A stretch of DNA of 64,000 nucleotides, taken from NCBI GenBank assembly GCA_029834535.1, contig JAQMWT010000190.1, positions 27,232 through 91,231 on the forward strand, written 5' to 3'. The first letter of the stretch is position 1. Every line of letters starts with the position of its first letter. The stretch comes from Chrysophaeum taylorii. Taxonomy: Eukaryota > Sar > Pelagophyceae > Pelagomonadales > Pelagomonadaceae. The translations under genes were made by a program, and so were the position numbers. The notes below the pieces were generated by a model, which had not been told where the DNA came from, made no database searches, and was given only the letters and a program-made list of their open reading frames with translations. Below, one piece after another: positions 1 to 63,590 of the stretch.

Positions 1-1822
1 TACGCAGATGGCGACGGACGATCTTCAGTGCCGGTCGGTTATCACACCATACCGTGGTGCGAGGCGGCCGGACCCCCTCGAGGGTCTGGATGAGGTGGCG
101 CACGCCAAGAAGGCGACGGACAGTGTGAGACAGGGCTAAGATGGCAACTCAGGCGTGCTGTGGCACGTCGCAGAGACGCGCCGACTGGCCCCAGAGACGC
201 AGGCCCCCTGGAGGAGAACGGCACCACCGAGACGCGAAAGGGCAGAGCCGTGCGCACCGCGAGCGAGCTCATAGCCAAGACTCTCGTCCGCGTAAGCAGC
301 GAGGTGGAAGGCGCCCGGTAGGCAGCACAAAACAGGATGCCAAGGTCCCGGTGAGCCGCGAGCCAACGCAGGGCGCGGTCGAGGGCCCGAGCGTGGCGCT
401 CGGACCACACGTTTACGGCGGTGGCCAGGACGTGAACCGTGCGCGCGAAGGTGGGCAACGTCGCCCGCGTGAACATGAGCAGACCAAGGGCCTCGCGTGG
501 GTTGCTGGCGAGCGCGGCACGGACGTCGCCGCCGTCGGCCGTCTTGTCGGGTACGTTGGGGTCGACGTTGAAGTCCAGGTGCATCGGTGTGGCAGGCCCG
601 ACCGTGATCGAGCCGTAGCCGAGGTGGCCGAGGACTTTGTCGATGTACGGGCGCTGGTGGGCGAAGACAGAGCCATCGGCACGGTAGTCGAGGGTGATGC
701 CGCAGATGTCGTGAGCGACGTCGTCCCACGTCATGACAAAACGGTCGCTGAGCGCAGCGCGTACTTCAGCCACGGCGTCCGGTTGGCCCGCGAGCGGAAT
801 GTTGTCGACAACGCTGATGAGTACCGTCGGCGGCCCAGTATCTTCATAGCGGTAGAAGAAGCAGGGGTGGTACGGCGATTCGAGGAAGCCAAGAAGGCCG
901 AGGTACTCGACGAACGTCTCATACCACTTGCGGCCCGCATGGGGCTGGCCGTAGACAGGCTTGAGCGTGAGCCACAGCGACCGAGCGGGGTCGTATCGTT
1001 GGTCCGGAGGAAGGTCTGCCATGTAGTCGCCAATGTGGCGAGGCGGGCGCATGTAGCGGCGCTCATGAGGCAGGAGTGGGTGAGATTGGAGGTAGGCGCA
1101 CCGAGCGTCCCCGGCGCAGGTGACATAGCCGTACCGGTTGCGGACGGCCTCGAAGACGAGCACGGCATTGTTGTCAGCGCATGGCGACGCGTACGAGGGT
1201 GAAACCGCAGTGACGGTACAAGGCGCATCGTCGTGGTCCACCGGGACGGCGAGCGCGTGCGCAGCCTCGGTCCGTTTGGCCTGAGCCCCGTCGTAGCAGA
1301 AGCGAACCTTCTGCGTGCCATCGCGCTTGACGGCGAGGGCGGTAATGCAGCCGACGACCACGGCGTCATCAGGGACGTCACGGGCGGCTACAACGCGGAT
1401 GGCCTCGAATTGGAAGAAGGCGCCGTGTTCCTCGAGGACGGCCGCCGTCCAGCCAGGCGCGTCCGGGCGGCCACGGGCCTCCCGGAGAGATCGGGGAGCC
1501 GTCGGGTCGGGGGGTCCGTAGTCGAAGGCGAAGGTCGAGGGCGGCGCCTCGTGCCAAAAGGCAGGGTCCTGGTCGTCGTCGAACAAGCCCGGGCCCGGTA
1601 GCGGGGCGTGGTCGGGAGCGGGTTCGCCGGCCGACGTGGCGGTCGCGTACGCCTGCGCAATCTTGCAGGCTTGGGTCAAGGTAGGGGGCGGGGCCGGTGG
1701 CCGTGCCGGGGGGTCGGCGTCCGCGAGCGGGGCGGTGGCCGCTGCACGCAAGCTGTCGAGGGTGGTGCGGAGCAAGTCGGTCGTAACAGGCGTGCCCGGT
1801 GCGGCGAGGAAGCGGACGGTCG
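1..1822 (-). pseudogene. Ty1/copia RT-RNase H region (3' half of split element, 'copia-1')
   Basis: Reads on the minus strand as the reverse transcriptase and RNase H end of a copia polyprotein. From 1775 downward one sees the RT lead-in, a GDARCAYLQS block in place of the usual D-x-x-x-A-F/Y-L motif, a VYGQPHAGRKWY block matching LYGLKQ-x-x-x-x-W, and VVDNI where copia RTs have YVDDI. The catalytic pair is therefore damaged. RNase H lies in two further frames: YADESLGYELARG (about 240-320) and then ALSHTVRRLLGVR...VWCDNRPAL (about 1-150). At least two frameshifts separate RT from the window edge, and the element runs off the left end. The upstream half is at 12263-15020: joining across the gypsy insertion (one TSD copy removed) keeps the reading frame open, so both halves are one element. 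It is a non-functional relic. Confidence 0.88.
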
Positions 1823-2138
1823 TGTGGCGGCAACTCCCGCCTCCTAAGGCTTACCCCTCTTCTAGCCCTCCCCCCTTTTCAGGGGCACCCTACTCCGTTC
1901 TGATGATGTCAGTTTTCTCTATGACATCATCTCCCCTGATTTCTGTGTTTCGATAATATCTTAATCATAAAGCAACGGCCGATCCTCAAGTTGTGAGGAC
2001 CAGGCACGGAAGTTGTTTGTGGTTGTGTGGCGGTAGAACGGCCATCCTCGTCCAGTGACTCCATCAAGGGCACGGACGCGAGCGCCGAGCCAGGATTCGA
2101 AGGCACGCCAGGTAGGCCTAAATTCTCCTTACGCCACA
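1823..2138 (+). repeat. 5' LTR of the gypsy element
   Basis: 316-bp direct repeat beginning TGTGGCGGC and ending ACGCCACA. It matches 11949-12262 along its whole length, with scattered substitutions and a few short indels (for example in the C-rich tract near 1866 and around 1948-1960). It should hold the promoter and polyadenylation signals. I see no clear TATA box. The bases from 2139 (GGTGGTGGAGG) may contain the primer-binding site, since TGG follows the LTR closely, but I could not match a tRNA with certainty. Confidence 0.95.
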
Positions 2139-2600
2139 GGTGGTGGAGGAATACGAGATTCGAGCGACCATATCGGTCGCAGCGAACGAGTGCATCTTGC
2201 ATTCTCTACACGGTCCGGACAAGCCGTGCGCGCCCTGATCAAGCGCGCCGACAAGGAATTCCAGAAGGACCACTGCCGTGGGAAAGTCCCCCGGCCGGAT
2301 ACGTTAGTCGTCGGAGGTGACGACGCGCGATTCGGTTCTAGCCGACGCGCAACCCGGGTACCGCTGCCGCAGGCGAGCGGAGTGAGATCGCAACTCACTG
2401 AGGCATTGATTGCCGGGCAGAGACGAATTCTGCCGCCCACCGGACTGATATATCGGTCGGTGGAAGACGCACGCGACGACGATATTACGCGTGTCGTGGA
2501 CGAGTAGAAGTCCCAGAGTCGAAGGAGCACGAGAACCACGACGACTCAATCATTTTGGACCCGCTCTGATCTCGGCCGATTAGAACGAGCCAGAGCCGAT
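2139..2600 (+). other. Untranslated leader of the gypsy element
   Basis: The stretch between the 5' LTR and the gag start. Short ORFs occur on both strands but none has recognisable content. The most likely contents are the primer-binding site at its left edge and packaging signals, neither of which I can delimit. Confidence 0.5.
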
Positions 2601-4346
2601 ATGGAAGACGATGATGCTGCCGTCGAGCAGATGCGATATGAAGAACCGCCAAGCCGTCAGGATGAGACGAGCGAGCGGAATGACGATGATGATAATGATG
2701 ACGATGAAGAAGAGCACGACACGGAAGTTGACGACGAGGAAGAAGAGCTAGACTACAACAACGGCGAGCCCGCGGAGAGACCGCCGGGAGGACGATCGAC
2801 AGCTCCGTCAACGCGTGCACGACCCCCGGATGTAACGGGAATGAATGAATTATACGAGGCTCACTTGCGGGCATTACGCGAAGAGAACGAACGCGCGCAG
2901 GAACGACTTTTAAAACAAATAGAAGAAGAAAACGAACGAAACGAGCGGCTACAACGGAAGGAGGCCGAAGAATTAAGAGAGCAATTGCGTAGGGCCAACG
3001 CTCGAGCAGACGACCTCCAAGATCAAGTAGACTCGTTGACACGTGAAAGAGACAAGTTGCGTACGCCGAGTCGATCAAGGCGAGCGAGCAGCCCGGGGTC
3101 CCGAGCTGAGGAAGAGCCGCCAACTACACGATCACGCGCGAAAGCTAGGAAGCCGCGCTATGAAGACGACGATGACGAAGAAAAGGAGGAGACGCGTGGC
3201 GACGGAAGGATCGACACCCAAGAGTTCTTGATGGGTTTCACGGATCGATTCGCCAGCGCGTTAGCTAAACACGATCGCAACAAGGAGCGGCGATCAACCT
3301 CCGGATTAAAGACCGAAACTTTTAAACTGGTTCTCGATGGACGCGATCAGGACCAGTTCGATTTACATGCGGGCGCGGTGATGAGTACGTTAGCCGAAGA
3401 CCATTTTAGCTTGGAGAAACTACGGTACCTGCTGCCCGCGACCCTGCGCGACACAGTCGCACCGATTTTTCGAGAACACTTAAAGAAGTACGAAGACCTG
3501 TGTAAAGATCTCGATCAACCAGCGTCTTTTTATTTACGTCGGGATATCGACGATGAGGAGTACGGTTCAGTGGTACGACGATTACGACGATTGAATGAGA
3601 AGTATTGCCCCAAGATTTTGAAATATTTCCGAGAGAGTTGCCCACTGCCGGTGACGGCAGAGGAATCGCTACGAAAGTTGCAAGGCACTACCCAAGCGAC
3701 CGTTCCGAAACGCTCTTTGGAACGCCACGTGCATACGTATTGCATTAAATTTCAGCAAGAGGCCATGGCGTACGGCTCTGTGGCCAATCGGGATCTCAAC
3801 GATATGGAGATCATCTCTTACTTGATACGTGGACTGGAGTCCAGCGAATTGAAATCCCGCGTGCGAACCATGCGCAGCGGGCACCCGACGACGTACAAGA
3901 CGTTTACGTCTACACTGTCATTGATTACACGGCTCGAGAACGATTTCGCGACAGCCATGGCGGTGAAGAACAGCCGAAATTCAACGAACCCATCGGGCGG
4001 GAAGCTGCAGAAGCCACCGTCTGGACGCGGAGGACGGGCGCTCGCCTCGGGAACGAAAGATAAAACGACGAAATATGAAGCATTGCGCCTCGAAGAGAAT
4101 CCGAAAAGGTGGTTCGAGAGGACATGCAAGGATTGTGGGTTTTTCTTAATGACCCTCGACAAGGATGAACACGGGAACCGGGTCATTTGCAACCGCGAGC
4201 CTGATGACTATTATGTGTCGATGTGTAAATACATCGAAGACGTCAAAAAGCCCAGCTCGCGAGGACGATGGGAGAGCCGACAAAAGAGAGATAATCATTC
4301 GCGTGACGACGGCAGTTCTAATGCCACCCTCGGTTCGAGCTGCTGA
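2601..4346 (+). CDS. Gag protein of the gypsy element
   Basis: 581 residues, uninterrupted, starting at the first ATG of the frame after the leader. Order: a strongly acidic Asp/Glu-rich N-terminus (about residues 1-60), a long charged coiled coil rich in E, R and K heptads (about 85-155), a basic linker, and a helical region about 215-430 that fits a capsid domain (it contains the segment FKLVLDGRDQDQFDLHAG). A Cys-rich tail follows, with C509-x2-C512 and further cysteines near 530 and 541 in place of a classical CCHC knuckle. Gag would assemble the cytoplasmic particle and package element RNA. The next ORF is in the +1 frame and overlaps its end, so either a frameshift links them or a mutation split them. 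The role is assigned by position, length and coiled coil rather than by a diagnostic motif. Confidence 0.75.
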   Translation: MEDDDAAVEQMRYEEPPSRQDETSERNDDDDNDDDEEEHDTEVDDEEEELDYNNGEPAERPPGGRSTAPSTRARPPDVTGMNELYEAHLRALREENERAQERLLKQIEEENERNERLQRKEAEELREQLRRANARADDLQDQVDSLTRERDKLRTPSRSRRASSPGSRAEEEPPTTRSRAKARKPRYEDDDDEEKEETRGDGRIDTQEFLMGFTDRFASALAKHDRNKERRSTSGLKTETFKLVLDGRDQDQFDLHAGAVMSTLAEDHFSLEKLRYLLPATLRDTVAPIFREHLKKYEDLCKDLDQPASFYLRRDIDDEEYGSVVRRLRRLNEKYCPKILKYFRESCPLPVTAEESLRKLQGTTQATVPKRSLERHVHTYCIKFQQEAMAYGSVANRDLNDMEIISYLIRGLESSELKSRVRTMRSGHPTTYKTFTSTLSLITRLENDFATAMAVKNSRNSTNPSGGKLQKPPSGRGGRALASGTKDKTTKYEALRLEENPKRWFERTCKDCGFFLMTLDKDEHGNRVICNREPDDYYVSMCKYIEDVKKPSSRGRWESRQKRDNHSRDDGSSNATLGSSC

Positions 4347-5127
4347 CGATATTCAGAGCAGGCTCAATGATATGGGCACGCAGCTGACCACGGTTATGGA
4401 TTCCGTGAAGCACTTAAAAGACGGACACGGCCGATCGTCTTCGACACGACCGGGCCGTCGAGATAGCCGGAGCCCCCGACGCCGCGACAAGAGCCGTAGC
4501 AGCTCGCGCCAACGCCGACGGAAAGACAGCCGGAGCTCTAGCAGACATTCACGCCGCCGCCGGCGACGAAGATCTCGCGATCGAAATTCGGACGGTGGTC
4601 GTTACCGGGAAGACTCGGGACATTCGTCTGCCACGTTCGCGTTTACGACCCCTTGCGGTCAACAGTTACCATTAGGAGTGATGGTGTACCCGCACACGGA
4701 CACCCGCACCGAAGACGCAGCCGACGCCCTTGCCGCGGCCGCATTCGAAGATCTTGCTCGCCCGCCGATGGACGAGCCACCCAACGACGTGCTGACCGAT
4801 CGTCGGTCTTTAGCACAGATTTATGAGGAGATGTCGAGCGATGAACTCGAAGATTCGAGCGATGACCTCGAAGCTCCACGATACTGGGAAGGCGATTCAT
4901 ATTCGGAAGATGAAGAAGCTACACCTTGTGAACCAGTGTCCGCGATAACGTCACTTGACGAGTCGTCCACGGACGACGCACCGTTTGTTTTTGAGGAGGA
5001 AGCCCTCGACGCTATCGGCTTATCCGTGGACCCTCCGGGGACGACCTTTAGCGACCGAACTGTCTGTGAGCCAGACATGGATTTCTGCAGTTATAGTCGG
5101 ATGATCATTCGACGGACGAGACGATGA
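4346..5127 (+). CDS. RS-rich, acidic-tailed ORF of the gypsy element
   Basis: The open frame begins at 4165 inside gag, but residues with their own composition start near 4346. The first part holds an arginine/serine tract (about 4430-4600) of SRSPRR, SRSSSR and RRRRRRRSRDR repeats, like the RS domain of SR splicing factors or a nuclear-localisation and RNA-binding tail. The rest is acidic, with a DELEDSSDDLE segment. It is in the +1 frame relative to gag, and its stop overlaps the ATG of the next ORF as ATGA (5124-5127). It may be a Gag C-terminal extension that replaces a zinc knuckle for nucleic-acid binding. No enzyme motif is visible. Confidence 0.6.
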
Positions 5128-5900
5128 CCATCGCGAGTGAAGCAGACGACGGTCCTACGATAGAGTTGACGTCGGGGACGACGCGATCTTTTCCTGCGGA
5201 CCCCCCCGAAACGGTTTCGGTCACGACTTATCGAGCCATGGACACGCCGCCGGAAGAAATGGATAGATTTAAGAAGAAGATTAGCAGCGTTCTGAAGTGG
5301 GACGAAGACGAGCCAACGTGGAACCTGCAGGATTGGTGGACGAGAACTCGGAACTTCTTGCTAAAGAAGCCACCAGAACAACCGCTCAGCTACGGACTCG
5401 AAGCCGCAGCCGACACGGAACCGATCGCCGATGATGGTTATGATCAACCAACGACGAATGAATCTACAGATGCGTTCTGGAAAGACGAAATGAATGAGTT
5501 ATGGGAGAGGTCCTTTGCTTCCGAGAATAGCGAAGATCGGGATCCCCTACCAGCACTGATTCCCTCCGAGATTGTCTTGGAGGAAGAGCGGGAGCCGCCA
5601 GATAAAGAGGCTTCCGCGAGCATTACGCCGATGACGCCAACAACAGATGATAGGAAAGCTCAAGCCGCGGTGTCGATGCCCAACCCCGGAGATGAGCGAA
5701 TCAGAGCCCGATGTGCTCACACTTCGTTGACGCCACGAGATGGCAAGACGATCGAAGATGATTTGGTTACCCTCACTTGTTTAGCTACGGGTACTCTTGC
5801 GTTTATGGCCTGCCACATCTACAGGAATCGTGACGGACCGAAATTCTCGACGACCATCGGTGTCGATGGAATGGCAGATGTTTCTTATATTTGCGGATAA
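5124..5900 (+). CDS. Pol N-terminal part with the start of an aspartic protease (ends in an in-frame stop)
   Basis: 258 residues in the same frame as gag and as the following ORF. Most of it is an acidic, low-similarity linker. The last ~25 residues resemble the beginning of a retropepsin: TIGVDGMADVSYI is comparable to the usual D-T/S-G-A-x-x-S-x-I, with DG in place of DTG. A TAA at 5898-5900 stops translation in mid-domain, and the next codon (ATG, 5901) continues the same frame with the second half of the protease. This is either a point mutation or a stop that needs readthrough. One copy cannot distinguish the two. Confidence 0.6.
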   Translation: MTIASEADDGPTIELTSGTTRSFPADPPETVSVTTYRAMDTPPEEMDRFKKKISSVLKWDEDEPTWNLQDWWTRTRNFLLKKPPEQPLSYGLEAAADTEPIADDGYDQPTTNESTDAFWKDEMNELWERSFASENSEDRDPLPALIPSEIVLEEEREPPDKEASASITPMTPTTDDRKAQAAVSMPNPGDERIRARCAHTSLTPRDGKTIEDDLVTLTCLATGTLAFMACHIYRNRDGPKFSTTIGVDGMADVSYICG

Positions 5901-8027
5901 ATGGTCAGAAAGTTGGCCAAAGATCAGTTGATTTTCGATGAAGGCGAACTTCCGATTAAGCGCGAGCTGTACGGATCAGGGTTGAATACGACGACGATCT
6001 TTCGTTGGATCGCGATTCGGGTCGCCCTCGCCGACAACATCGCCGCCCCCATTGTAGCTATTGTGGCCGATACGAACTATCTGTTCCTGTTGGGAGGGCG
6101 CGATATACGAGTTTTAGGAGCCGTCGTGGACTACCCCCACGATCGAATCTGTTTTTATCGAACCCAAGTCGTCTACGGGCGCAAGAAGATTAAGTTCAAG
6201 GATGAACGAATCGATGCACCCATCGTGACCTTTCGATCTATTTACGATCGAGACCCGATAACCGTGCCGATTTACAATCATCAACACGATGCATTTCGGA
6301 AGAGTCTCGATCTAGTCAAGACTCGAGTTTACGCTCGCTTGAGCACGATTAAAGATCTCCGAAGCCCGCCGCCGGAACGAACGGTAGCCTTGGCTACGCG
6401 GGGACATGCTACGACCAAATTCTCCCCAGCTCCGGGAGAAGACGCGCGAGGAGTAGTGGCTTACGCTGCGCGCACGCTTCAAATCGAACCCGGTCGAACT
6501 TACAATCTACCGGTTATTTTATCGAAACCTATGGACATGGGACAGGTTTTCGTCGCTACGTTTGCTGAAAACGAGCAGTTGGGGGTTGTCGAAGGAATGT
6601 GTTCTTCTTGCGAAGAGCACGACCGACCCGCTGCTCGGGTTGCGGTTACTGCCGCGGAAGAAGTGCCGACGGTCGTCACTCAAGGCGAAGTCCTCGCGAT
6701 TGGCGATATCGTTCGGTACGAAGATGAGTTGAACGTCTCTACGATCAACGAACTTACGAAGGAATGTGAAGAAGGATACGACAAGGGGAACCTTTCTTTC
6801 ACCGTTTCCGTCGCTAGTCATTTGACGCATTGCGACGCGTCTCCCCCGCCGATGTTGCTGAGCACGGCGCAGAAGGACGCTACGACCGCTATGGCGGACA
6901 AGTCCTCCCTCAAACGACCCGAAGGCGACGACGATTTTGCTCGAAGGTCGGAAGAAGACGAAAAGAAGTGCCGCGAGATCACCGAAGCGGAGATACGCCG
7001 CCGATACGAAGAGGTTCAATGGCTTCCAATCACTTATCGCAAGGTGGTTGTGCTGTTCAGTGGAGCCGGGGGCAGTACTTTAGGTCTCCAACGAGCCAAC
7101 GAAAGGTGTGGGACGTCGTTTCGAGTCGTGCTAGCACTCGATGCGTCGGACACCGCCAACCAGATCCACCTTAAGAATTACCCGAACATTCCTGTGGTGC
7201 AGCACACACTGTGTGGTCGCTATGTTACAACCTTACGGTTGATTGAATCTTATTTACACTACGCGGAATGGTCGTCGTCGATGTGTGTCGCGTCGCCACC
7301 CTGCGTACATTCCGCTCTGTGCAACTTGACTTCCAGAGATGTTGGGAAGGGAGTCACCGCTACCCACTGGACGATGAAATTATGCAAGATGGCTGGTTTC
7401 TTCATGTGGTTGATAGAGCAGGAGGCCTCGATTATTTCTTACGTTGCACGTTTGCACCCTTACGTGTACGTCGTCAATTTTTATGACATAACGCCCAGTT
7501 TGATGAGCTGTCGCGTGCGATTGTTGGTTTCCAGCCACCCGCTCCATTTGCGCGCAGTTCCAAAGACTTGCAAGAATATGCAACAAGAGTTCGCCGCCGC
7601 ACTTGGCTACGCCGACGAACGACATTTACTCCAGATGAACAATTTAGGATCATCACGAGCAGCGACAGACGCAGCTTATACCGTTACGCGTGTCCCGCTT
7701 CGTGTAGGACCGCACCGTTCCGATTACAGATCTTTGAATCTGAAAATGACTTCGGAGTTGCTGACAATGCCCCTTGATTTTGATTGGGCCGGCTTCTCCA
7801 GGACGACCTCGTTGAAACACTTGGCGTCCGTCGTGCCACCAGACACGACGGCCTTATTAGTACTCGATCTGCACAACTCTGTGACCAAGGATTTTCACTT
7901 GAGCGGCGAAGCTTTGCCGTCGGCGTTGAGTCCTGCAGACCGACCGTTTGATTATTATTTGCAAATTGATGAAACCACCCTTCGTCACGTACAAGTTCCG
8001 CTGTTAAACAAGGCACACGTGTCGTAA
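5901..8027 (+). CDS. Protease C-terminal half fused to a C5-cytosine DNA methyltransferase
   Basis: 708 residues. Residues ~30-75 carry the second half of a retropepsin (VADTNYLFLLGGRDIRVLG, matching the family's x-L-L-G-x-D flap-distal motif). After a ~300-residue linker comes a complete-looking C5-MTase: motif I LFSGAGGS at residues 385-392 (SAM binding), LALDAS as motif II, motif IV ASPPC with catalytic Cys468 (codon 7302-7304), a motif VI-like Glu506 in LIEQE, motif VIII around R538-x-R540, motif IX YRSLNLKMTSE (609-619), and motif X LASVVPP (641-647). Such enzymes methylate C5 of cytosine in DNA using S-adenosylmethionine. Placement between protease and RT in one frame implies synthesis as part of Pol and release by proteolysis. 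The MTase part has no stop or frameshift, unlike the protease and integrase. Motif VI has EQ where most enzymes have ENV, so activity is not assured. Confidence 0.9.
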   Translation: MVRKLAKDQLIFDEGELPIKRELYGSGLNTTTIFRWIAIRVALADNIAAPIVAIVADTNYLFLLGGRDIRVLGAVVDYPHDRICFYRTQVVYGRKKIKFKDERIDAPIVTFRSIYDRDPITVPIYNHQHDAFRKSLDLVKTRVYARLSTIKDLRSPPPERTVALATRGHATTKFSPAPGEDARGVVAYAARTLQIEPGRTYNLPVILSKPMDMGQVFVATFAENEQLGVVEGMCSSCEEHDRPAARVAVTAAEEVPTVVTQGEVLAIGDIVRYEDELNVSTINELTKECEEGYDKGNLSFTVSVASHLTHCDASPPPMLLSTAQKDATTAMADKSSLKRPEGDDDFARRSEEDEKKCREITEAEIRRRYEEVQWLPITYRKVVVLFSGAGGSTLGLQRANERCGTSFRVVLALDASDTANQIHLKNYPNIPVVQHTLCGRYVTTLRLIESYLHYAEWSSSMCVASPPCVHSALCNLTSRDVGKGVTATHWTMKLCKMAGFFMWLIEQEASIISYVARLHPYVYVVNFYDITPSLMSCRVRLLVSSHPLHLRAVPKTCKNMQQEFAAALGYADERHLLQMNNLGSSRAATDAAYTVTRVPLRVGPHRSDYRSLNLKMTSELLTMPLDFDWAGFSRTTSLKHLASVVPPDTTALLVLDLHNSVTKDFHLSGEALPSALSPADRPFDYYLQIDETTLRHVQVPLLNKAHVS

Positions 8028-8374
8028 GATGGGTATCGACTGATGATCTCCAAGATCGCATGAAATGGGAACCTCCAGAGGTACCGTTGATTCCGCCTGC
8101 AACAGATGAGCCGGGGACGTCTCATGCTTCTTCTGCTGCCCCCCCCCCCCGACAACCAAATTTGGATGTTCCGCCAGATCCTGAGCGAGATCGGGAACCG
8201 AAGATCAAGAGCGAGCCGAGCGTTCGTGTCAAAGGCGAGAGGATCAACAAAAGCCACCCGGAAGTGAGACTAAAATTATGAGAAAAAGTTTGATGTGCCA
8301 TGGAAAGATGCGCCGCGCGATGCTGAGGGTGCACCGCTGCGCAAACTCCTGAGCATGTCAAGGATAATGAAGCC
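8028..8374 (+). other. Pol linker between methyltransferase and RT
   Basis: No enzyme domain. A Pro/Lys/Glu-rich frame (8060-8281) looks like a polyprotein hinge. A C run near 8141-8153 is a likely site of slippage or sequencing error, and stops near 8279-8281 and after it break continuity between the MTase frame and the RT frame. The ancestral polyprotein probably read straight through here; that is inference. Confidence 0.55.
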
Positions 8375-10531
8375 ATGAAAGTTCAAGTTCCGACGAAGGA
8401 AGAAGTTGACAAGGTTGTTCAGGAGCTGGGAATTCCTGACAATCCGCACTTAGATGACGAGGCGAAACTGATGCTCCGTCACTGTGTGCAATATTCTTGG
8501 GCCTTTTTCGACCCGATTATGAGACCGGTGGACTCGCATCCTGTGTCTCTACGATTCAAAGACGCGAATCCGCGACCGATTAAGATGACGCCCTACCGAT
8601 TGACGCCTGCGAAGCTCGATTGTCTCCGCAAGCAGATCAGCGAGTGGCGCCGGGATGGAGTCATTCGTCCGGCCAACTCACCTTGGGGCTTTCCTGTGTT
8701 GATGCTTCCGAAGAAAGGAGCTGAGATTGGAACGTCCAACGCGTTCCGTGCTGCAGTTGACTTACGTCAGCTCAACGATCAATTGGTCAATGACAGTTGG
8801 CCGAACATTCGACAAGATGATGCTTTAGCTTTTCTCGCTATGCGACGATGGCGGACATGCAATGATATTAGATGGGGATACCACAACCTTCGTCTGGATC
8901 CGGCAGCGCAAGACGCTATCACGATGGTTAACCCACTTGGCGCTCATAGTATCTTGCGATTACCTCTAGGTGTGAAGACGGCCGGAGCTCTTTTCTGCAA
9001 GCAAATGGCGAGCGACCTTTCGAGATGGATGTATCGAGACTTGGTTGCGTTTGTTGACGATATTATGATGGGATCTGACGATCTTCATCGACATTTGCAA
9101 GTTTTGATCGAAGTGATGTGTCATTTGGCACAGAGAGGGTACAGCGGTCGAACCGCGAAGTTCCACCTTCTCAAGGATGATATAGAATTTCTGGGACACA
9201 TCTCGACCCCAGAAGGCTTGAAGCCGAATCCGAAGACGCTGGAAGCACTGCAGAAGATGCCGATTCCAGGTACTTTACCGAATACTTCCCCGAAGACCCA
9301 GATACGCTCTTTCATCGGCATGAGTAATTATTGTCGGCGATATGTGAAGGGCTACTCGAAGATCGTGGAACCGTTGAGACGATTATGCCTCGAAGGCGCA
9401 AAGTTCGAATGGGCGCCCGAGTGTCAGAAAGCTTGGGATACGATTATTGAAGCTTTGGTCGATTCCAGAGGAGTCCACCACCCCGATTGTGATCTGCCTT
9501 TTCAGATCCGATCCGATGCTTCCAAGGATGGACTTGGAGCATATCTCTTCCAGATTGTCGAAGTCAAGGACGATGCCGGAAGAGTGACTCGAGAAGAACG
9601 AGTGATTGAATATTGGAGCCGAGCTGTGCCGAGGGAGATGCGCAATTACGAACCCCGTCGGCTAGAGCTGCTGGCAGTTATACTTTCTCTAGAGCACTTT
9701 CGAGCCTACATCGAAGGGCACCGGACTGTTTTGGAGACCGATCACCGAAATTTGACGTTTTTACGTAAGGCGACGCACTTGTCTGGGCAGCTTGCTCGTT
9801 GGGCGATGCGCCTCGCAAATTTAGACCCTGAACTTGGTTACAAGCCGGGAAAGTCACCGGGAATGAGTATCCCTGACTGTCACTCCCGCAATCCGATAGA
9901 TCATGTCATCGAGACTGACGAGTTTGGAGAACCTTTTAACCACGCTTATCTGGTGTTCCAAGAGCTTCCCCGACCTGTTGATGACCGAGGAATTCCCGCA
10001 TCCGGCTGCCACTTCATAATGTCGTTTGTTACGACCGAACTGCCGGAAGACGAAGACGAAGACCCTGAAAAGGACCCGATAAAATTGGCTACGTCTCACG
10101 CTACGAGACAACGTCGGAAGAAACGTGCGCGCGATGAGCCACAGATCTTCAAGGACGCAGCCGCTTACAAAGATTATATCGATAAGATACCCGATAATAT
10201 GACGCTCGCTGAGATCGCACGTGAGCAAGAATCTGATGCTACTTGCGATATTCGCTACCGAATGGCCCAAGGTCAGACGCCGCGACGTTCCCGAGCGAAC
10301 GAACGATTCGAAGTTGTTAAAGACGTTCTTTACCGAATTTCTGCTGATTTGCACCCGATGATTGTTGCACCTGCTACGTTGCGCAAGCGCATTATTCGAC
10401 TCTACCATGGCACTCCGGTTAACGGTGGTCATATGGGACGTCACAGTACCGTCCAGGCTATCCAAGAACGATTTTGGTGGCCCCACATGTCGAACGAAGT
10501 TGGAGTCTTCATTGCTGAATGTTTAATTTGA
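8375..10531 (+). CDS. Gypsy reverse transcriptase - RNase H - integrase zinc domain
   Basis: 718 residues. RT: the PYRLTPAKLDCLRKQI entry, Asp164 in NDIRWGYHNLRL, and the catalytic pair Asp228-Asp229 in FVDDIMMG, followed by the conserved IEFLGH and the FIGMSNYCRRYVKGYS connection. RNase H: Asp381 in RSDASKDGLGAYL, then ELLAVILSLEHFRAY and ETDHRNL. The integrase zinc region follows: LYHGTPVNGGHMG supplies the two histidines and IAEC the first cysteine. The frame then meets TGA at 10529-10531, exactly where the second zinc cysteine (C-x2-C) is expected, and continues in frame with QIARTPEPKR. It copies element RNA to DNA. RT and RNase H look catalytically intact. Confidence 0.95.
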   Translation: MKVQVPTKEEVDKVVQELGIPDNPHLDDEAKLMLRHCVQYSWAFFDPIMRPVDSHPVSLRFKDANPRPIKMTPYRLTPAKLDCLRKQISEWRRDGVIRPANSPWGFPVLMLPKKGAEIGTSNAFRAAVDLRQLNDQLVNDSWPNIRQDDALAFLAMRRWRTCNDIRWGYHNLRLDPAAQDAITMVNPLGAHSILRLPLGVKTAGALFCKQMASDLSRWMYRDLVAFVDDIMMGSDDLHRHLQVLIEVMCHLAQRGYSGRTAKFHLLKDDIEFLGHISTPEGLKPNPKTLEALQKMPIPGTLPNTSPKTQIRSFIGMSNYCRRYVKGYSKIVEPLRRLCLEGAKFEWAPECQKAWDTIIEALVDSRGVHHPDCDLPFQIRSDASKDGLGAYLFQIVEVKDDAGRVTREERVIEYWSRAVPREMRNYEPRRLELLAVILSLEHFRAYIEGHRTVLETDHRNLTFLRKATHLSGQLARWAMRLANLDPELGYKPGKSPGMSIPDCHSRNPIDHVIETDEFGEPFNHAYLVFQELPRPVDDRGIPASGCHFIMSFVTTELPEDEDEDPEKDPIKLATSHATRQRRKKRARDEPQIFKDAAAYKDYIDKIPDNMTLAEIAREQESDATCDIRYRMAQGQTPRRSRANERFEVVKDVLYRISADLHPMIVAPATLRKRIIRLYHGTPVNGGHMGRHSTVQAIQERFWWPHMSNEVGVFIAECLI

Positions 10532-11908
10532 CAGATAGCTCGTACGCCTGAGCCGAAACGAGCTGGACTCTTGCAGCAGCCCGTATACGATGGTGATGGT
10601 GCTGTTCTTTGCATGGATTTATTTGGACCTTTGCCCAGCGCTGGTCCCGAGACGTATCTTCTAGTATTTTTTGATCCGTTCTCGCATTTCTTGATTCTGG
10701 ATGTTTTGAACGATAAGACTGCTGAGTCTGTCCTCGAGTCTTTTGTCATCAACATCCTACTCAAGGGCCACTTGCCCCAGATGACTCGTACCGACAATGG
10801 GGAAAGAGTTCGTGAACAAGTTGATGCGCGAGTTTTGCCATCTCTTTAACACGCGATACCAGACTACGATTCCTTATCATGCCCAGTCGAACCCGGCTGA
10901 GCGTGTTAACCGATTTATCAAGGCCTTCCTCCGTGCTTGCCTTCAGGGCCGGAACATCACGGATTGGCCCGACTTTGCCCATTATATTGCGTTTTGTTAC
11001 AACCGCAAGTTTATTCCAGGCACGCAGATTTCTCCCTTTATGCTGCGCCTGAACCGTCAGCCGATGCTGCCGACTGACTACACGCTTATGGACTTTGATA
11101 CGCGATTGTTGCCGAAGACTCGCTCTGATGCAGTCGCCGAAACTCGTGAACGACTGAAGTATTATACGAAGATCGTCCGCGAGGCTCGTGATAAAGCTTT
11201 GAAGAAACAACGATTGGCATACAATGCTGATCATGCTGATGTTGAGTACAAGGAAGGATCGCACGTTTTGCTCTATATTCCTTTCCTTCAGAACAAACTT
11301 CGACCGGAATGGCGAGGACCGTTCAATATCAAGGAACGCCCTTCCCCGGTCACCTATAGGATTGAGTCTCTCGACTCTCCGCCCGAAGAACGACGTGTTC
11401 ATGTTAGTCAGATCACGCCTGTGATGGTACCTCCGATCGTCGATCCAACCATCCGCAAACCCGAAGAAACCTTCCGTGATGATTATCAGCACGGTAAATT
11501 TGTTCTTTTCCGGATTCCTGACCGGAAGCGCTCTGATTGGCGCAAGAAGATTTATGTTGCCGAAGTTTGCGAGCCTTACGATTACCTGAATGGTCGTGTT
11601 GCTCTACATTCTACTCCGATTTGGGTCCGAACGATGATGACGCTTATTTCAAGCCGACCTCTCACCTTTCGCACCGCAAGCTCAAGCCCGAGTTAAAGGA
11701 CGTTGAAGGTCGAAGTTTCACCGACGAGTCCAGAATTTCCTCCAACACAACTCCTTGTGTCACGGATTTCGCTCCGCACGAGATTGATGTGTTGATCCCC
11801 AAGTTTACTTTACGCAGTGGCCGAGTTCCTGAACCGGTCATCACCCGCGTTTACCAGAAGATTCGTTCACGAGATGCTCGTAAGGCGAAGCCGCGCTCCT
11901 CGCGCTAG
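10532..11908 (+). pseudogene. Gypsy integrase core and C-terminal region (frameshifted)
   Basis: Continues the RT frame to about 10800 with the first catalytic Asp in MDLFGPL (10615-10617) and the second in TRTDNG (10792-10794). The frame then moves by one base at the GGGG run near 10796-10800 (one extra G) into 10797-11696. That frame holds the catalytic Glu in NPAERVNRF (10899-10901) and a tail with SHVLLYIPFLQNKLRPEWRG (GPY/F-like region). A second frameshift near 11630 passes to 11621-11908, the basic C-terminus. All three DDE acidic residues are present. The stop at 10529 plus two frameshifts prevent a full integrase from this copy. Confidence 0.9.
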
Positions 11909-11948
11909 CACCTCGCTGGGGCAGCTCGAATTCTTACCAGGGGAGTCC

Positions 11949-12262
11949 TGTGGCGGCAACTCCCGCCTCCTAAGGCTTACCCCTCTTCTAGGCCCCCCCC
12001 TTATCAGGGGCACCCTACTCCGTTCTGATGATGTCAGTTTTCTCTATGACATCATCTTCCCTGGTTTCTGTGATTCAAGTGTTCTTAATCATAAAGCAAC
12101 AGCCGATCCTCAAGTTGTGAGGACCAGGCACGGAAGTTGTTTGTGGTTGTGTGGCGGGAGAACGGCCATCCTCGTCCAGTGACTCCATCAAGGGCACGGA
12201 CGCGAGCGGCGAGCCAGGATTCGAAGGCACGCCAGGTAGGCCTAAATTCTCCTTACGCCACA
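11949..12262 (+). repeat. 3' LTR of the gypsy element
   Basis: 314 bp, TGTGGCGGC...ACGCCACA, the partner of 1823-2138. The purine-rich AGGGGAG at about 11939-11945 just upstream fits a polypurine tract. The flanking GGTCG at 12263-12267 completes the 5-bp target duplication. Confidence 0.95.
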
Positions 12263-15020
12263 GGTCGCGGTCGTGCGCACGAGGCGAAGGTCGTCCTGGA
12301 CGCAGCCCGGTCGCGGCGCTGGAACAACGTAGACGGCCCCGGGGCCGGCCTCGGGCCGACATCCTAGGTATATCCCGATCAAGGCGCGTTCGGCGTTCTT
12401 CGCGGCGTCGACGCGGTAGGCAACGAGCGAGCCGTAGGGCGCCATGCCGCTAATGTCCTCGTGCTCGCCGATGTAGCCGCCGACGACGTTCACCTGGCGG
12501 ACGGCGTAGAGGTAGGAATAGCCCCAGAATTTGGGATGGAGCACGTTCCGGACCAAGACGTCGTTGGCGCGCGCCACGTCCAGAATCCGGATGTGGGCGT
12601 TATCGGCGGCGTTGACGTGGCGTTCGGGGACGACATACTCGACGGCGAGGCCGGTTGCGGCGGCCGCAGAACGGAAGTGCGGGTTGTCGAGCTCGCCCCC
12701 CAAGTCCGCGCGGAGGGTAGTTGGGTGCAGCCCAGCCGCGCGCGCGGACGCGATGAGCACGAGGAGCTCCCCCGCCGCGTCGCTTTTCTTGGCGATGAGC
12801 GAGCTCGCCAGGCGAGCCGGGCGCCGAAAGGCGAAGTCGAGGCCATACCGCGCCCCTCCGAGCGTCGGCGGGTTGAAGGGGCCTTGCAAGTCGACCTCAA
12901 CGACGGCCCCGTCGGGTGCCGAGGTCGCGCTCGTCGTCGTGGAATGCGTGGGCGCCTTGCGTAAGCGGCCGAGGGTGCAGCAGGTGGGGTGCCGGCATTC
13001 CCCGACAGCGGGAAGGCCGAGCCACTTCAGGGCGGCGTCCCGGCGGTCATCGCTGGCGTGGCCGAGCATCTGATGGGCGCTGACGTCGTCGAGGCTGAGG
13101 CCCGGCATGAGGACCGGGTCGACCGGCCGTGCGCTCGGGTGCTGCAGCATTGCCGCCCCAACGGCATGGCTCGACGCCACAGCAGCCATAGCACCGGCCA
13201 AGACCGCGGTCGCGATGATGGAGGAGACGAAAGCCGAGCCAAAGACGCCGCGCGGCGCGAGCCGGCGTCCGGCAGCGGCGGTGGCGGCGGCGGCGGCGGC
13301 GGGGGCCGCGGCGGTGACGGCCGCAGTGCCGGCCGTCGCCGGTTCGGTCCCCGTGCGCCGGGTGATGAGCACGTAGTCCTTTCCCCGCTTGATGAGGGGG
13401 ATGATCTTGCCGTCGCTCGTCTCGAGGCGAGGGCGCGACCCGCTGATGAAGCGCCCCCCGCTCTTGTCGAACTGGTCGACCGAGAAGAGCCGCGGGAGCG
13501 AGGGCGTAATGGCGGCAGCGATGGTGACGTCGATGTGTCCGTCTGTAGTCTGGAGCGTGACGTTCTCGATGACGTGTCCACTGACAGCGTGGCTGTGGCG
13601 TCCACCGTCGAAGAAGCCGCCCGGGAGCCAGGACAGCCACGTCTTCGTGTAGGAGACCACCGTGCTGTACTCGGGCCGCGTGTGGTTGTCGCAGGCGGAG
13701 TCGACGAGCCACTCCTCGTAGTCGTCTTGTGGCGCCGCGCGGGCACGGGCTGCCCGCGCCGTTGTGCTGCACAGGAGCGGGAACGGGACAGTGCGGAGGA
13801 TGCATGCAAGGCCGGGGACGAGGAGGAGAGCGGGCAGCGCAACACTGCCGTCGAGCCAGGGACCGAGCATAGCCCCGGCGGCCACGAAGAGTAACGTCAA
13901 CGTCAGGTGAAGGGCGCCGGGAGAGACCAACGGTGGCTCGATGCCGCGCGCCATAAATGCGCGCGCGCCGATGGTGTAACCGGTCCGGCCGGCGTCGGTG
14001 GTGCGGCGGGCGGCCGCGGCAGCGGTCGGCGCGGGCTCACGGGCTTGCGGGGCATGCGGGTGCGCCTCATGGGGCGGCGCGGCCGGGCGGGCGGGTGGCG
14101 CGCCCCGGTACCGGAAAGTCCTCAACTTGCGGAGGTCGCGGATCGAGAGGACGTCCCCGGGCTGCCAGCCGGGAGCCTTGAGCGGGAAGTCGTCGGTGGT
14201 GTGGGTGGGGAAGCGGCAGATTGCGCACGGCATACGGCTCGTGATGTCGGCAGGGCATATGCGGGCGGTGTGAAAGAGCCCGTAGCACTTGCTGCAGAAC
14301 GGGACTGGTCCAGTCCGGGCGGAAGTCGTAGTTGAGCGTGGTGCGGCCGGGCGGGACAGCAGTTTGCGCTGCGGTCTGGCGGGCACGTGCGCGAGAGCCG
14401 CCGCGGCTGATATCGGCGTTGCGGCAGTACGTGGTAAAGACCTTGATGAATGTGTCGTACGTGGTGCCTGTCCGGGCGGACTCAATCGCGAGAAGACGGT
14501 GGGCCTCCGCCAGGTCACCCCCCCCCCCTTTGGGTCCCTTGAGGCCCTCGAGGAAGTAGAGCATGCGATCCGTGTCGGTGAATGTGTCGCCCAGCGCCTC
14601 AAGGGCCGTGATGTTACGCTCGAAGGCCGCGAGGTAAATGTCGGGCGTGCCGAACGAGACGATGGACAGATCGTGCAGGTGCTGGCGGAGTTCTGTCTTG
14701 CTGTTGAAGGCGAAGCGGTGGCGTAGGCGGTCCAAAGCGTCGGCACCAGTCTGGCAGCGGTCGACAATGCGCTACGCCTCCGTCGCGGTGCCGCCGCGCA
14801 GGAGGCAGAGCAGGAACAGGTCGGCATCGGGCGTCAACGGCGGGGGCCTGATGGAGCCGGCATCATCATCCAGGAACTGGACGTAGTCCACGACGTCCTG
14901 TTCGAGTTGTCGCAGGTGCGTCGCGTCCTCCACCGCATCACCGTCGGGGGTGAAAGTGCGGAGCAGGCTGACGATGTCCGGCAGGCGCTTCCGTGCGTCC
15001 TTGAGCTCGGTGGCCGACAT
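12263..15020 (-). pseudogene. Ty1/copia Gag-protease-integrase region (5' half of copia-1)
   Basis: Reads from 15020 (ATG, MSATELKDARKRL) downward in three successive frames. Gag N-terminus lies at 15020-14772, gag middle at 14735 to about 14310 (IYLAAFERNITALEALG), then one long frame from about 14310 to 12263. That frame holds a zinc knuckle CSKCYGLFHTARIC (C-x2-C-x4-H-x4-C), the protease WLVDSACDNH, the pre-integrase HQMLGHASD...CCTLGR zinc region, and integrase with D in VEVDLQGPF, D in RADLGGE, and AADNAHIRIL where copia has A-E-R-x-x-R. The third catalytic acid thus looks replaced. The order Gag-PR-IN followed by RT is diagnostic of copia. High GC sets it apart from the other copia elements here. 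Two frameshifts and the gypsy insertion make it non-functional. Confidence 0.88.
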
Positions 15021-15236
15021 GACACTCGCGCGCAAGTGGTAGCGTCGTGCTAGAACACGAACAACATGGGCCTCATAACCGCATGAGTGTCATGTGTGTG
15101 TGAAGTGAACGTGGCATGTGACCTAGTGTCAGGACAGGCGACGTGGCGCGTGCGTGGCGTGTGCGTGGCGTGTGCGTGGCGTGTGCGTGGCGTGTGCGTG
15201 GTGTGTCAGTGGCGTGTCACTGGGACAGGCTGGTGC
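15021..15236. repeat. Copia-1 leader with GCGTGGCGTGT tandem repeat
   Basis: Upstream (minus sense) of copia-1 gag. The stretch 15143-15211 is a tandem array of a ~10-bp GTGCGTGGCG unit repeated about six times. It may include the element's 5' leader or LTR end, but no second LTR copy is in the window for comparison. It abuts the mitochondrial-like sequence at about 15237. Confidence 0.55.
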
Positions 15237-15716
15237 AATTGACTACATGTCGAATACGCTATAACTCGTTTCAAATCATTTTGTAAAAGACCTGTTGTTG
15301 CAGCGAAGAAAGCTGTCATAGCTCCAAACAAGGTAATTACTGTTAAGGCAGTATTCGAATACTCCAATAAAGGGGAACAACGGGATATTAAGAAAACGCC
15401 TGCTGTAACTAATGTCGCAGCGTGAATTAACGCAGAAACAGGAGTCGGTCCCTCCATCGCATCTGGAAGCCAAGTATGTAAGCCTAATTGCGCAGATTTT
15501 CCTACAGCACCGATAAAGAGCAAAATACTAATAAGATTCAATAAATCAAAATTAAAAGACAGAAAGAGAATTCTTTTACCCTCAAAGTAGGGAACCATAG
15601 CAAAAACAGTGGAATATTCTACTGTTTGAAAACACAAATAAGTAGAAAAGATACCTAAAGCCAACCCAAAATCTCCTATACGATTTACTATCATGGCTTT
15701 AATCGCGGCTTTATTA
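15237..15716 (-). pseudogene. nad5: Mitochondrial nad5 fragment in nuclear DNA (NUMT), downstream part
   Basis: AT-rich minus-strand frame encoding an internal piece of NADH dehydrogenase subunit 5 of complex I. Conserved blocks include [38 protein letters not shown] and [20 protein letters not shown]. It begins mid-codon at the S1 junction and ends at STCSQL, before the next conserved residues. Tryptophan is TGG here. The adjoining upstream piece is at 17025-17130, and the two join in frame once S1 is removed. It sits among nuclear transposons, so I read it as a mitochondrial-to-nuclear transfer, not a working gene. Confidence 0.92.
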
Positions 15717-18207: not shown

Positions 18208-20157
18208 AGCGTGTTGTAATGTGACGCAAAGAAGCTGTATCAGTATCCACATCAGATGTATGGTCCGATTCATCTTCGCTATTATCATCCAGTTCCTTTA
18301 ACTCTGGAGAAGATGAATTATGAACATCCGATGGTGGGTCGTTAGTAGTGTTAGTATTGTGCGTAGTCATTGCATCACTCAAGGTAACCAAGGGTGATAT
18401 GACAGATGGAAGGAAAGACATAGCAGAGTCGGGTGTAAGAGCGTGTAGATCCAATGCAGGAATAACACGATCATTTGCATCAGACATAGTTGCATGGAGA
18501 TGATGAGCTGCTGCGTCGATTTGAACTTGCTGAGCCTCATTATACGTATCGGGAGGGAGCTGTCCAATAGATGGGATAAGTGACCGAGAAATGATATGGA
18601 CAAATACAGCAGAGGACGGGATTATGATGTCCTGATGCATCTGAAGACTTGACAAGATGTTGTCTAATAGAGACACATGCTTGATGTTCTCAATCACTTG
18701 GGTGTTTAAATTTTCGTAAGTCTCTTGCATCTGTGTGAGAGATGTTAATGCAAGCGATAGTTGTTGATCTTGCGCCATCAATTGCTGTTCGGTATTAGTG
18801 AGACGCAAGGATAAAGACCGAACCTCTTCTTTTAATTGATGTAAAGATTCCGTCATATTATCGTTAGTTTTATCTAGCGTGGGTTCAGCGGGTGGATTGT
18901 CGATCGGCGCTGGTGAAACATCTTCAGAAGAAGTATCATCTGAAAAGACATCGCTTATGTCCGAAGGGTAGCCAACCTGGATTGGCACATTTTTAAAGGC
19001 AGCTTGCTGTACAGGTGATAGTTGACGAAAATAATTAAGCATTGGCGGTAACGTCTCGGAGGAGATTGCGTTAAATTGGTGGGAAACATCATCAACGAAG
19101 CGTTCGACAAGCACATTAAGCAGCTCGTCCGGGTTGGTTACTACGCATACTTTATCTTCAACTGAATGTAACAGAGACCAAGCTGCTACAAGAATCTCAA
19201 GATTTACACTCGAGATAAAGGGCAGCCGAAGTAAAAGCATGCTGCTATCGTCAGTGTTAACAATGGTTTTGGAGGCATCAACTTTAAGGGATAACGCAGT
19301 TTGCATGATTGCCTCTTTGAGCTGCTTATTAATAGCAATGGACTTTCCAAGGCGGAGGATTATCGCTCTGGTGTGGGCAGCTGGATCGTCAAAGCAGGAA
19401 AGTTGGAAGGGCTGCTGACTGTTGCGAATTAAAGCTATCCCATGATGTGACCGATCGCACAGCACACAAATCAACAAGAAGAAAGGGCGCGGTACGTCGA
19501 AGCAGTGGGATGCATGTTGCTCAGACGCGAGATGATCCTCAATAATTTGGCGAATCCTGTCAGTTTTAAGTTCATCTTCATTACAAATGATGAGCACGAC
19601 TGGTGTGCCTGGCGCATCAACTTTATTGTAGCACTTTGTACACGTCACATGTACTTTGACACCCCTTTAATGGGTGGGAAGCGATGAAGACGGATACCCT
19701 CGTTAGGAGATATAGCGGGGGCGTTTCGGATACGCTTAGTCTTGACACACAACACGGAGCTGAGATATTGGACGTTGTCTACAAACTCTGTCTGTTGTGC
19801 TTCCGTAAGCAGCTGTTGCAAAGACTTAAGCCAGCACTGGGGGTCCTTGTGTTGCGGAATAAGAAAGTTGGGTGGTGATGAGCCAAGAGCAGTAACGTTC
19901 CCGGACATCATCGCTAATACGTCAAATTTGCAATGTTTGAGCAGGAAATACTCAGACTTTGCTGCTTGCGATTTAGACTGTTGTTGGGCAGCTGCTTTGG
20001 GCGCCCTGGGCGTCACGGGCGTCGATTGATGTCCTTGCGCCACCGACAAATAGGTTTGATGTTTCCGACTAGGGGAACTAGTCGGTGCAGCGCTTGGAGT
20101 TAGAGCATTGAAAGGTGGAGACAGTGACAGTATACCACCACCGCGACCACGGTTCAT
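18208..20157 (-). pseudogene. Element B post-pol ORF: Cys-pair plus coiled-coil protein of unknown function
   Basis: Starts at the ATG at 20157 (MNRGRGGGI). It runs ~170 residues to about 19660, then continues one frame over to 18208, so a single indel near 19660 splits what was one ORF of ~650 residues. Content: an RG-rich N-terminus, a low-complexity linker, cysteine pairs (VTCTKCYN, LICNEDE, ICVLCDRSHHGIALIR) that could bind zinc, an acidic Ser/Asp segment, a long coiled coil (LKEEVRSLSLRLTNTEQQL and following), and a Thr/Asp-rich tail. It lies directly after B's RNase H. Element A has the same two parts as two ORFs. No membrane helix is evident, so it is not an obvious envelope protein. 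No known family recognised. Confidence 0.65.
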
Positions 20158-20293
20158 GGTAGAGTGGCGTCGGCTCGCAGCATCTTTGTTTTTTAGTGGG
20201 ATTCATCATGAGAGGAATCTCCACATCACATTTTATGTCGCATTTCACATTTTAGCAAGCCAGTGTCCTGTGCATAGCAGGGTTAGTTTAAAG

Positions 20294-20711
20294 TCATTTC
20301 GGACATAATGGAGGGTAATGATTAACCGTCATGTTGAGCCATGGGTTGTTGTAAGCCGAGTAACGTGCGAAATCTGCTGAAGAGTGGAGCTCCAAAGGGT
20401 TTGGTAAATCCATCGGCAAATTATGGGTACCGGAAACATGATGTAGGCGGATTCGTTTTAACTGTGCGTAGTCACGTATACGGAACCAGCGTGTGCTGAT
20501 AGCTTTAGCCTTAGTCGCGCTGTCGGGGTTGTTTGATAGATGAATAGCAGAGGAATCTCCAAGTATAGGACTGTTACGTATGACCGACATGTCCGATGGG
20601 AGGGGATTGTCTTGAGCATCATAATCTAGTAGCAAATCTTTCCGTGAAGGTTGGCGAAGATAGAAGTGAGGGTTTATAACGAATGCCATTTCCGTTAGCA
20701 ATTTGCGTAAC
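20294..20711 (-). pseudogene. Element B RNase H C-terminus, cut by element A1
   Basis: From the A1 border the minus strand encodes LRKLLTEMAFVINPHFYLRQ, then SPILGDSSAIHLSNNPDS and AISTRWFRIRDYAQLKRIRL. These align position by position with A's RNase H ending (LRKLLLELSFVVNPTFY, LPLLSDNAAAVHTSNNPDG, ALSTRWFKIREYISLQKIRV). Just after the last residues lies a variant of the family motif discussed under findings (20283-20305). The upstream part of B's pol would lie beyond A1's 5' end, but it is not there, so it has been lost. Confidence 0.85.
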
Positions 20712-21024
20712 TGCAGAGCATTAGCAAGCAGTGGTAAGTCACCTGGGAAACCACCCCGTCTCATCATGAACGTCTGGAAGTATTTAATTCGGGGAATGAA
20801 AAGGTATGTTCCCTATATCCTCAGAACACGACAGGCGGCATCTAGAACTACTCGAGAAAGGTAAAGTGTATAGTGCTACATACCTCGGGACGCGCTAGAC
20901 CATGATGATGAGCGTAGGCACAAATCAGAGGACTATTTGATTGTGTAGAAAGGAAGAAGAAGGGTAAGGAAGAGATCACGTTCTCAACGGACGGATAAGG
21001 GTAAGAGGCAGCAGGTTTCTCTGC
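20712..21024 (-). repeat. LTR of element A1
   Basis: 313 bp. In minus sense it starts TGCAGAGAAACC and ends GCTAATGCTCTGCA, the same length and nearly the same sequence as the A2 5' LTR at 48712-49024. The CGAGGGGG purine tract directly precedes it (minus sense). The bases on its outer side (GTAAC at 20707-20711) belong to element B. Confidence 0.92.
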
Positions 21025-21184
21025 ACCCCCTCGAGATGTCTTAAGCGCAAGGTGCGACTGAAGAGTATCTCTTGAGAAAGATGATGATGAAAACAGGAGA
21101 AAAAAAAAGGAAAGGAGCATACAGTCTTGATGGTCGCAGAGGTCACACAAGAAGCATCAAGAGCATAGTCGGGTGTCTTAGGGC

Positions 21185-21895: not shown

Positions 21896-21927
21896 TTCCA
21901 GAGTAGATTCTTATGTGGGAAGTGAGT

Positions 21928-23175: not shown

Positions 23176-23269
23176 TCACGACACGTACAAAAAAATTGTG
23201 GCAAAAGAAGGAAGGGTCAGGGCTAGTTTGCTAGTTTAACGACGTTGCGGTCACTAGGGTTAGGCATCT

Positions 23270-61113: not shown

Positions 61114-61208
61114 AGATGCCTAACCCTAGTGACCGCAACGTCGTTAAACTAGCAAACTAGCCCTGACCCTTCCTTCTTTTGCCACAATTTGTTGTACGTG
61201 TCGTGTGA

Positions 61209-62610: not shown

Positions 62611-62652
62611 TACTTCCCTCATCAGAATCTACTCAGAATCTACTCTCTGAAA

Positions 62653-63340: not shown

Positions 63341-63590
63341 TCTTTGTAAACCTGTGTTTCGTAATGCTCTGTTTTAAAGCGTCAAGTTCGACACTCAAGC
63401 CACCAAGTTCAGTCCCAGCCCTAAGACACCCTGCATGCTCTGAGCTGTCTTGTGTGACCTTGCGACCATCAAGACTGTATGCTCCTTTCGCTTCTCTTTT
63501 TTGTTCCTGTATCATCATCATCTCTCAAGGAGACCAAAACTCTTCAGTCGCACACCTTGCGCTTAAGACATCTCGAGGGGGGCAGAGCGA

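Follow-up and report, generated by a model that had tools for sequence, protein, structure and literature searches.

A Ty3/Gypsy retrotransposon of Chrysophaeum taylorii very probably carries, upstream of the reverse transcriptase (RT) in its Pol, a divergent C5-cytosine methyltransferase (MTase) domain, as motif order, profile comparisons and related copies suggest. The element lies within the 64,000-nucleotide stretch of DNA analysed here, which we call the window. Our overall reading, to which we assign a probability of about 0.5, is that the MTase is a regular, if divergent, part of the family's Pol that would methylate the element itself, and that it is helpful but dispensable in cis.

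The element in the window (1823–12262) is an old, broken copy of its family (Table 1). Its assignment to Gypsy by a first-pass annotation of the DNA holds: the long terminal repeats (LTRs), beginning in TG and ending in CA, match at 96.2% identity (12 differences over 314 aligned bases, plus two gap columns), an exact target site duplication (GGTCG) stands on both sides, and Pfam places RT, RNase H and integrase in that order. The open reading frame (ORF) said to encode the MTase is indeed open, over 708 residues. In Pfam searches the ORF in the gag position matched no gag family, giving coiled-coil-like matches below cut-offs, and a search with a putative primer-tRNA pattern, based on the nucleotides following the 5' LTR, came up empty. 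A putative protease is recognized from a DTG-like motif seen by eye in copies of the element, Pfam giving no protease match in the window or in its relatives. Signs of decay are several: the window copy reads Ala-Thr-Gly (ATG) where four other copies have DTG, it has an in-frame stop at 5898–5900 that is absent from the same four, its frame diverges from that of other copies near 8010, and its integrase is split. Two groups of GC-rich minus-strand ORFs flanking the element (42–1775 and 12242–14827) are read as halves of one Copia element, within which the Gypsy element would be nested; the one domain match in these groups is a weak RVT_2 in 42–1775 (24 bits against a cut-off of 31.6).

Table 1. 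Features of the Gypsy element in the window, with positions counted from the first base of the window.
Feature	Position	Strand	Basis
Left target site duplication, GGTCG	1818..1822	.	repeated at right end
5' LTR, TG...CA, 316 bp	1823..2138	+	LTR pair comparison
ORF in gag position, first long one past 5' LTR	2601..4346	+	ORF list
ORF holding start of protease-like part	5124..5900	+	protease by eye
708-aa ORF: remainder of protease-like part, linker and MTase domain	5901..8027	+	ORF list, Pfam
Predicted C5-cytosine methyltransferase domain, about residues 380-660, motifs I, IV, VI, VIII, IX, X	7038..7880	+	profiles, alignments
Predicted catalytic Cys468 codon	7302-7304	+	motif IV alignment
RT, RNase H and integrase zinc-binding domain	8375..10531	+	RVT_1 8.7e-11, RT_RNaseH 5.9e-25, Integrase_H2C2 1.3e-13
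Integrase core piece, broken frame	10571..10849	+	rve E 6.2e-6, 26.8 bits, below 32.6 cut-off
Integrase C-terminal part, own frame	10797..11696	+	Integrase_p58_C E 4.3e-5, 24 bits, below 27 cut-off
3' LTR, 314 bp	11949..12262	+	96.2% identity to 5' LTR
Right target site duplication, GGTCG	12263..12267	.	matches left copy

The window also holds other mobile or transferred sequence. Two Copia elements of one family lie in opposite orientation at 23973–28208 (minus strand; RVT_2 E 4.8e-42) and 55804–61113 (plus strand; assigned by reading its ORFs). On the minus strand are a fragment of an NADH dehydrogenase subunit (15206–15694; PF00361, E 1.8e-37) that looks like a nuclear insert of organelle DNA, an 831-residue ORF with no Pfam match that appears tyrosine recombinase-like by eye (30464–32959), a MULE-type transposase-like ORF (45276–47261; PF10551, 27.4 bits against a cut-off of 27.6) and a reverse transcriptase ORF (52631–54037; RVT_1 E 3.3e-21), of non-LTR type by eye.

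Within the ORF at 5901–8027 the predicted MTase motifs follow one another in order: LFSGAGGS (residues 385–392), ASPPC with C468, IEQE (505–508), RVR (538–540), ELLTMP (619–624) and LASVVPP (641–647), where a residue number equals the column of our alignment A1 plus 353. The earlier description of the domain as full-looking is thus right as to motifs I to X and their order, and too generous as to two of them: relative to the C5-MTase consensus, motif IV lacks its usual Q (PPC-V/I) and motif VI reads EQE instead of ENV. A match to PF00145, proposed at first pass as the check on this region, was found, as the sole Pfam match of the window ORF at E≤1; it covers residues 382–437 only (E 4.9e-4) and at 20.1 bits falls below the cut-off of 22, so that the case for an MTase rests on the relatives. 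One of these, locus L039, also falls short (21.3 bits), whereas two exceed the same cut-off: L040 (C235), 79% identical to the window in the MTase domain, reaches 22.8 bits in what is its ORF's sole Pfam match at E≤0.1, and L162 (C311) reaches 29.3 bits over the whole ORF and 35 bits (E 1.4e-8) for the domain. L162 represents a second Gypsy family, 61.9% identical to the window in RT and 40.0% in the MTase; an MTase in the same slot of two families so diverged points most simply to capture before their split.

Profile comparison extends the likeness through the whole domain. When a family profile (A4: window, L040, L024 and L162) was aligned by hhalign with a reference profile (A3: six plasmid C5-MTases and the genome's DNMT2), 258 columns matched from motif I to motif X (98.2% probability, E 5e-14), IEQE pairing with ENV and the C-terminal motifs lining up as well; A1 against A3 aligned motifs I–IV (97.5%, E 6.6e-12), each such E-value referring to one single comparison. 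With L162 included, the C-terminal part by itself reached 35.7 when compared with an eight-row reference, and none of 100 column permutations exceeded 22.0; a full-length run made alongside, in which the family had seven rows, aligned motifs I–IV only (98.0%, E 2.2e-13). With L162 left out, the C-terminal signal was weak (24.3, exceeded by one of 100 permutations); for the N-terminal part the score was 82.2, the highest among the permutations being 23.1. Searched by tblastn against 72,556 plasmid records (E≤10), the window domain matched 23 (best E 0.01); among the 15 of these listed, 12 were annotated as cytosine MTases, two as 'none' and one carried no annotation, and all four matches of L162 (best E 0.08) were cytosine MTases. 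The sole NCBIfam match of four domains was dcm (TIGR00675), at E 0.013 to 1.1e-8 and in every case far below the cut-off. PDB searches returned no significant match for the Gypsy MTase, an unrelated GGA1 chain ranking first in one (E 0.17); DNMT2 chains matched the window domain weakly and without significance (E 0.18–0.98), as against 3.9e-39 for the genome's own DNMT2; DNMT3 was absent from the matches of the Gypsy MTase domains up to E 10; and a single-sequence AF2 model of the domain had a pLDDT of 31.

The family is abundant, and its copies bear out the placement of a C5-MTase downstream of the protease-like motif and upstream of RT. At least 114 genome matches to the window's MTase domain, itself included, share 79–100% amino acid identity, and 89 of the 114 are free of stop codons over the part that matches; 114 is a lower bound because the matches were scored from 1,066 candidates. 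The worry that no other copy would carry an MTase in this slot can therefore be set aside. An MTase among those listed stands directly upstream of 34 of the 62 scored RT matches, at a spacing of 348–365 bp in 31 of the 34 and of 85, 411 and 443 bp in the other three. We rejected the converse count, that the remaining 28 lack an MTase, as all six of those 28 that were read contain MTase pieces, several of them frameshifted or truncated. Four further Gypsy loci were read; three contain MTase sequence and one, L159, does not.

Across 31 first-family sequences (the window, 29 copies and L040), PPC, IEQE and LASVVPP are present in all, RVR and ELLTMP in 30 and the motif I pattern in 29, with a stop codon in two; A4, in which window and L162 share 39% identity, likewise shows no variation at the predicted catalytic Cys or at the Glu of motif VI. 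Comparing MTase with RT in other copies, as had been suggested at first pass, we obtained mean omega values against L040 (30 sequences) of 0.058 (0.048–0.068) for the MTase and 0.024 (0.017–0.111) for RT, both approximate since dS is about 1.85, near saturation; the protease-linker part had a dN of 0.33 and a dS beyond reach. Codon-position differences of the window MTase run 39:21:138 across 282 codons. Within-family values (MTase 0.152, RT 0.288) were left out of the argument, being biased because the copies were picked as top MTase scorers, a bias that affects the between-subfamily value less. By these substitution ratios the Gypsy MTase domain is under purifying selection. The first-pass annotation had taken its intact frame beside broken neighbours as a hint of constraint; constraint there is, by the between-subfamily omega, and the intact frame says little about it.

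A variant of the second family offers a natural experiment on the need for the domain. L159 (C335) is about 98% identical to L162 apart from a missing segment of 1,108 nt containing the MTase, and its reading frames before and after the junction differ. Allowing up to two mismatches, we found the deletion junction at four loci and the subfamily's intact left boundary at 18. Two of the deletion loci, C335 and C248, match at 99% inward from their TGTGGC start but do not match beyond it, which is most simply explained by separate insertions; at C394 the sequence read did not match, and C209 stops before that point. These boundaries indicate that the MTase-deleted form has moved, alone or helped by full copies, and its spread suggests that the MTase is helpful and not strictly needed in cis. 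That same spread, together with the off-consensus EQE of motif VI and PPC-V/I of motif IV, would also suit an MTase fold kept in Pol without catalysis, for structure or for binding nucleic acid, a reading made unlikely by the invariance of the predicted catalytic Cys and motif VI Glu both in A4 and in 31 of 31 first-family sequences. The Gypsy MTase is probably catalytically competent.

Searching the genome with PF00145 revealed a second class of MTase-bearing element. Among 57 matches, which come from the 123 of 474 candidates that were scored, 55 overlap MTases borne by Copia elements, which leaves DNMT2 and one DNMT5-like gene; the Gypsy MTases are missing from this set because of that partial scoring. 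The copy read at one locus (L042, L063) is a Copia element: its gag-like ORF and protease-like motif are followed by an MTase with FTLPCQ and VENV, a weak rve below cut-off and RVT_2 (E 7.8e-39), and flanking repeats of about 208 bp, 88.9% identical, enclose it; upstream of its coding region, L042 contains a perfect 217-bp tandem duplication (957–1390). The Copia MTase has 152 genome matches, some of them pieces of one copy, those listed being 56–100% identical, and a single pair (L042 against L041) gives an omega of 0.108 for the MTase and 0.123 for protease plus linker; rows for the Copia integrase part and for the Gypsy MTase of the window against L162 aligned out of register, at 5% and 7% identity, and were set aside. 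Its profile matches the reference C5-MTase set (95.6%, E 1.3e-8) and finds no match in the Gypsy MTase profile (0.7%; both profiles are shallow), which argues for separate capture. Apparently, then, MTases entered LTR retrotransposons twice in this one genome, both times in the slot next after the protease, as enzymes of no detectable specific kinship. Capture on more than one occasion suggests that an LTR element gains from methylating during its life cycle.

The DNMT5-like gene matches PDB entry 7r76 (E 3e-143), named Rad8, which we take to be a fungal DNMT5. DNMT5 is a maintenance-type methyltransferase. Neither DNMT1 nor DNMT3 was found in the PF00145 genome search, from which intron-split genes could be hidden. 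PF00504 finds 84 matches in the genome, which comprises 70.8 Mb in 697 contigs; of two compared with the PDB, one had as its best chains fucoxanthin chlorophyll protein (FCP) or other chlorophyll a/c antenna proteins, and the other the LHCI chains of a single entry (best four), with FCP-type chains next. Arrays of light-harvesting genes with near-identical scores lie on C88 and C539.

The element's CpG observed/expected ratio is 1.32, against 1.09 in the remaining window, with the 5' LTR alone (322 bp) at 0.755. Among singletons in 30 sequences, C>T changes number 9 of 125 at CpG and 11 of 260 elsewhere, and G>A changes 4 of 122 and 19 of 252; the element body is thus not depleted in CpG, nor, overall, are C>T singletons in excess at CpG. 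Such counts suggest that the coding part either has not borne heavy CG methylation for long or does not decay where it is methylated. The Copia-rich stretches of the window (20001–28000 and 56001–64000) have ratios of 0.82–0.96, below the remaining window. A body free of CpG decay would be expected if the maintained enzyme acted, in the manner of DNMT2, on RNA—the genomic RNA or the primer tRNA—rather than on DNA, and the weak DNMT2 matches in the PDB and the position the MTase would have, adjoining RT and its primer, fit this too; the reach of the profile and tblastn matches to plasmid DNA C5-MTases tells against an RNA substrate, which we think improbable.

We tentatively favour self-methylation as the role of the Gypsy MTase, with the odds somewhat against it. 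The Pol polyprotein would be cut by the protease and the MTase packaged alongside RT in the particle. There it could place 5mC de novo on the nucleic acid of the element, the likeliest substrate being the double-stranded cDNA at or ahead of integration, and the marks so set could afterwards be maintained by the DNMT5-like enzyme of the host. That the enzyme instead targets host or viral DNA, altering host chromatin or countering competing DNA viruses, has been speculated for such elements (in the available text of PMC6338049), and hundreds of genome matches could yield much enzyme; we consider it very unlikely. A broader proposal, which we regard as doubtful, is that retrotransposons hold most of the recognizable C5-MTase genes of this genome, captured independently by Gypsy and Copia, and may set de novo the methylation that DNMT5 goes on to perpetuate. 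It arises because DNMT2 and the DNMT5-like gene are the only host-like MTases found. Were it true, establishing the marks of a host epigenetic system would be the work of selfish elements. With a DNMT5-like gene and neither DNMT1 nor DNMT3 found in the search made, this host allows one to ask directly which enzymes lay down methylation de novo.

Outside this genome, among 5.8 billion proteins, the MTase regions of the window, L039 and L042 ORFs had no relative at E≤0.01, within length limits and word seeding and with the L042 query scored against the 7,992 candidates sharing most words; viral contigs scanned with A1 yielded none, and 80 bacterial loci, all close to the query, were left out of the analysis. 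In the open-licence literature, covered by titles and the starts of abstracts, we found no report of Gypsy and Copia elements with separate MTases in one genome.

MTase-bearing retrotransposons, one Gypsy included, are already published, and the family in the window adds a variant. The precedents given at first pass, in dinoflagellates and a charophyte alga, are real: de Mendoza et al. (2018; PMC5890265, here and below as described in its available text) report SymbioLINE, SymbioDIRS and KnitGypsy-Dnmt3. The closest, KnitGypsy-Dnmt3 of Klebsormidium nitens, is likewise a Gypsy element with a C5-MTase within the Pol ORF and under purifying selection, but it is Dnmt3 by phylogeny and has a DIRS-like repeat arrangement, whereas the window element has ordinary paired LTRs and a 5-bp target site duplication (PMC5890265). 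The window MTase is further set apart by description, having no DNMT3 match in the PDB up to E 10 and EQE in motif VI, and its host, unlike that of KnitGypsy-Dnmt3, carries chlorophyll a/c-type antenna genes. SymbioDIRS-Dnmt3 and SymbioLINE-Dnmt of Symbiodinium share with our elements high copy number and a retrotransposon-borne C5-MTase, and two SymbioDIRS enzymes methylate CG in yeast; they are DIRS and LINE elements, however, where ours are LTR Gypsy and Copia, and SymbioLINE is CG-depleted where the body of the window Gypsy element is not (PMC5890265). A 2025 paper, citing the 2018 elements, words them in its accessible part as 'LTR Copia and DIRS' elements with DNMT3 (PMC12344493) and so shares with our case an MTase in LTR retrotransposons, Copia by name; the L042 Copia MTase, for its part, has PCQ and ENV motifs. 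The available text of PMC6338049 mentions in general terms that Stramenopiles, among other algae, have Gypsy and DIRS elements encoding an MTase, which lowers the novelty here, although that text names no family comparable with the window Gypsy. Farther afield, an orchid Ty3/Gypsy element carries an m6A RNA demethylase domain (PMC9289625, from its available text), again a captured nucleic-acid-modifying enzyme, differing in being an RNA demethylase and in its plant host. Against this background the window family extends by one the known captures of MTases by LTR retrotransposons, and does so in a host that has chlorophyll a/c-type antenna genes.
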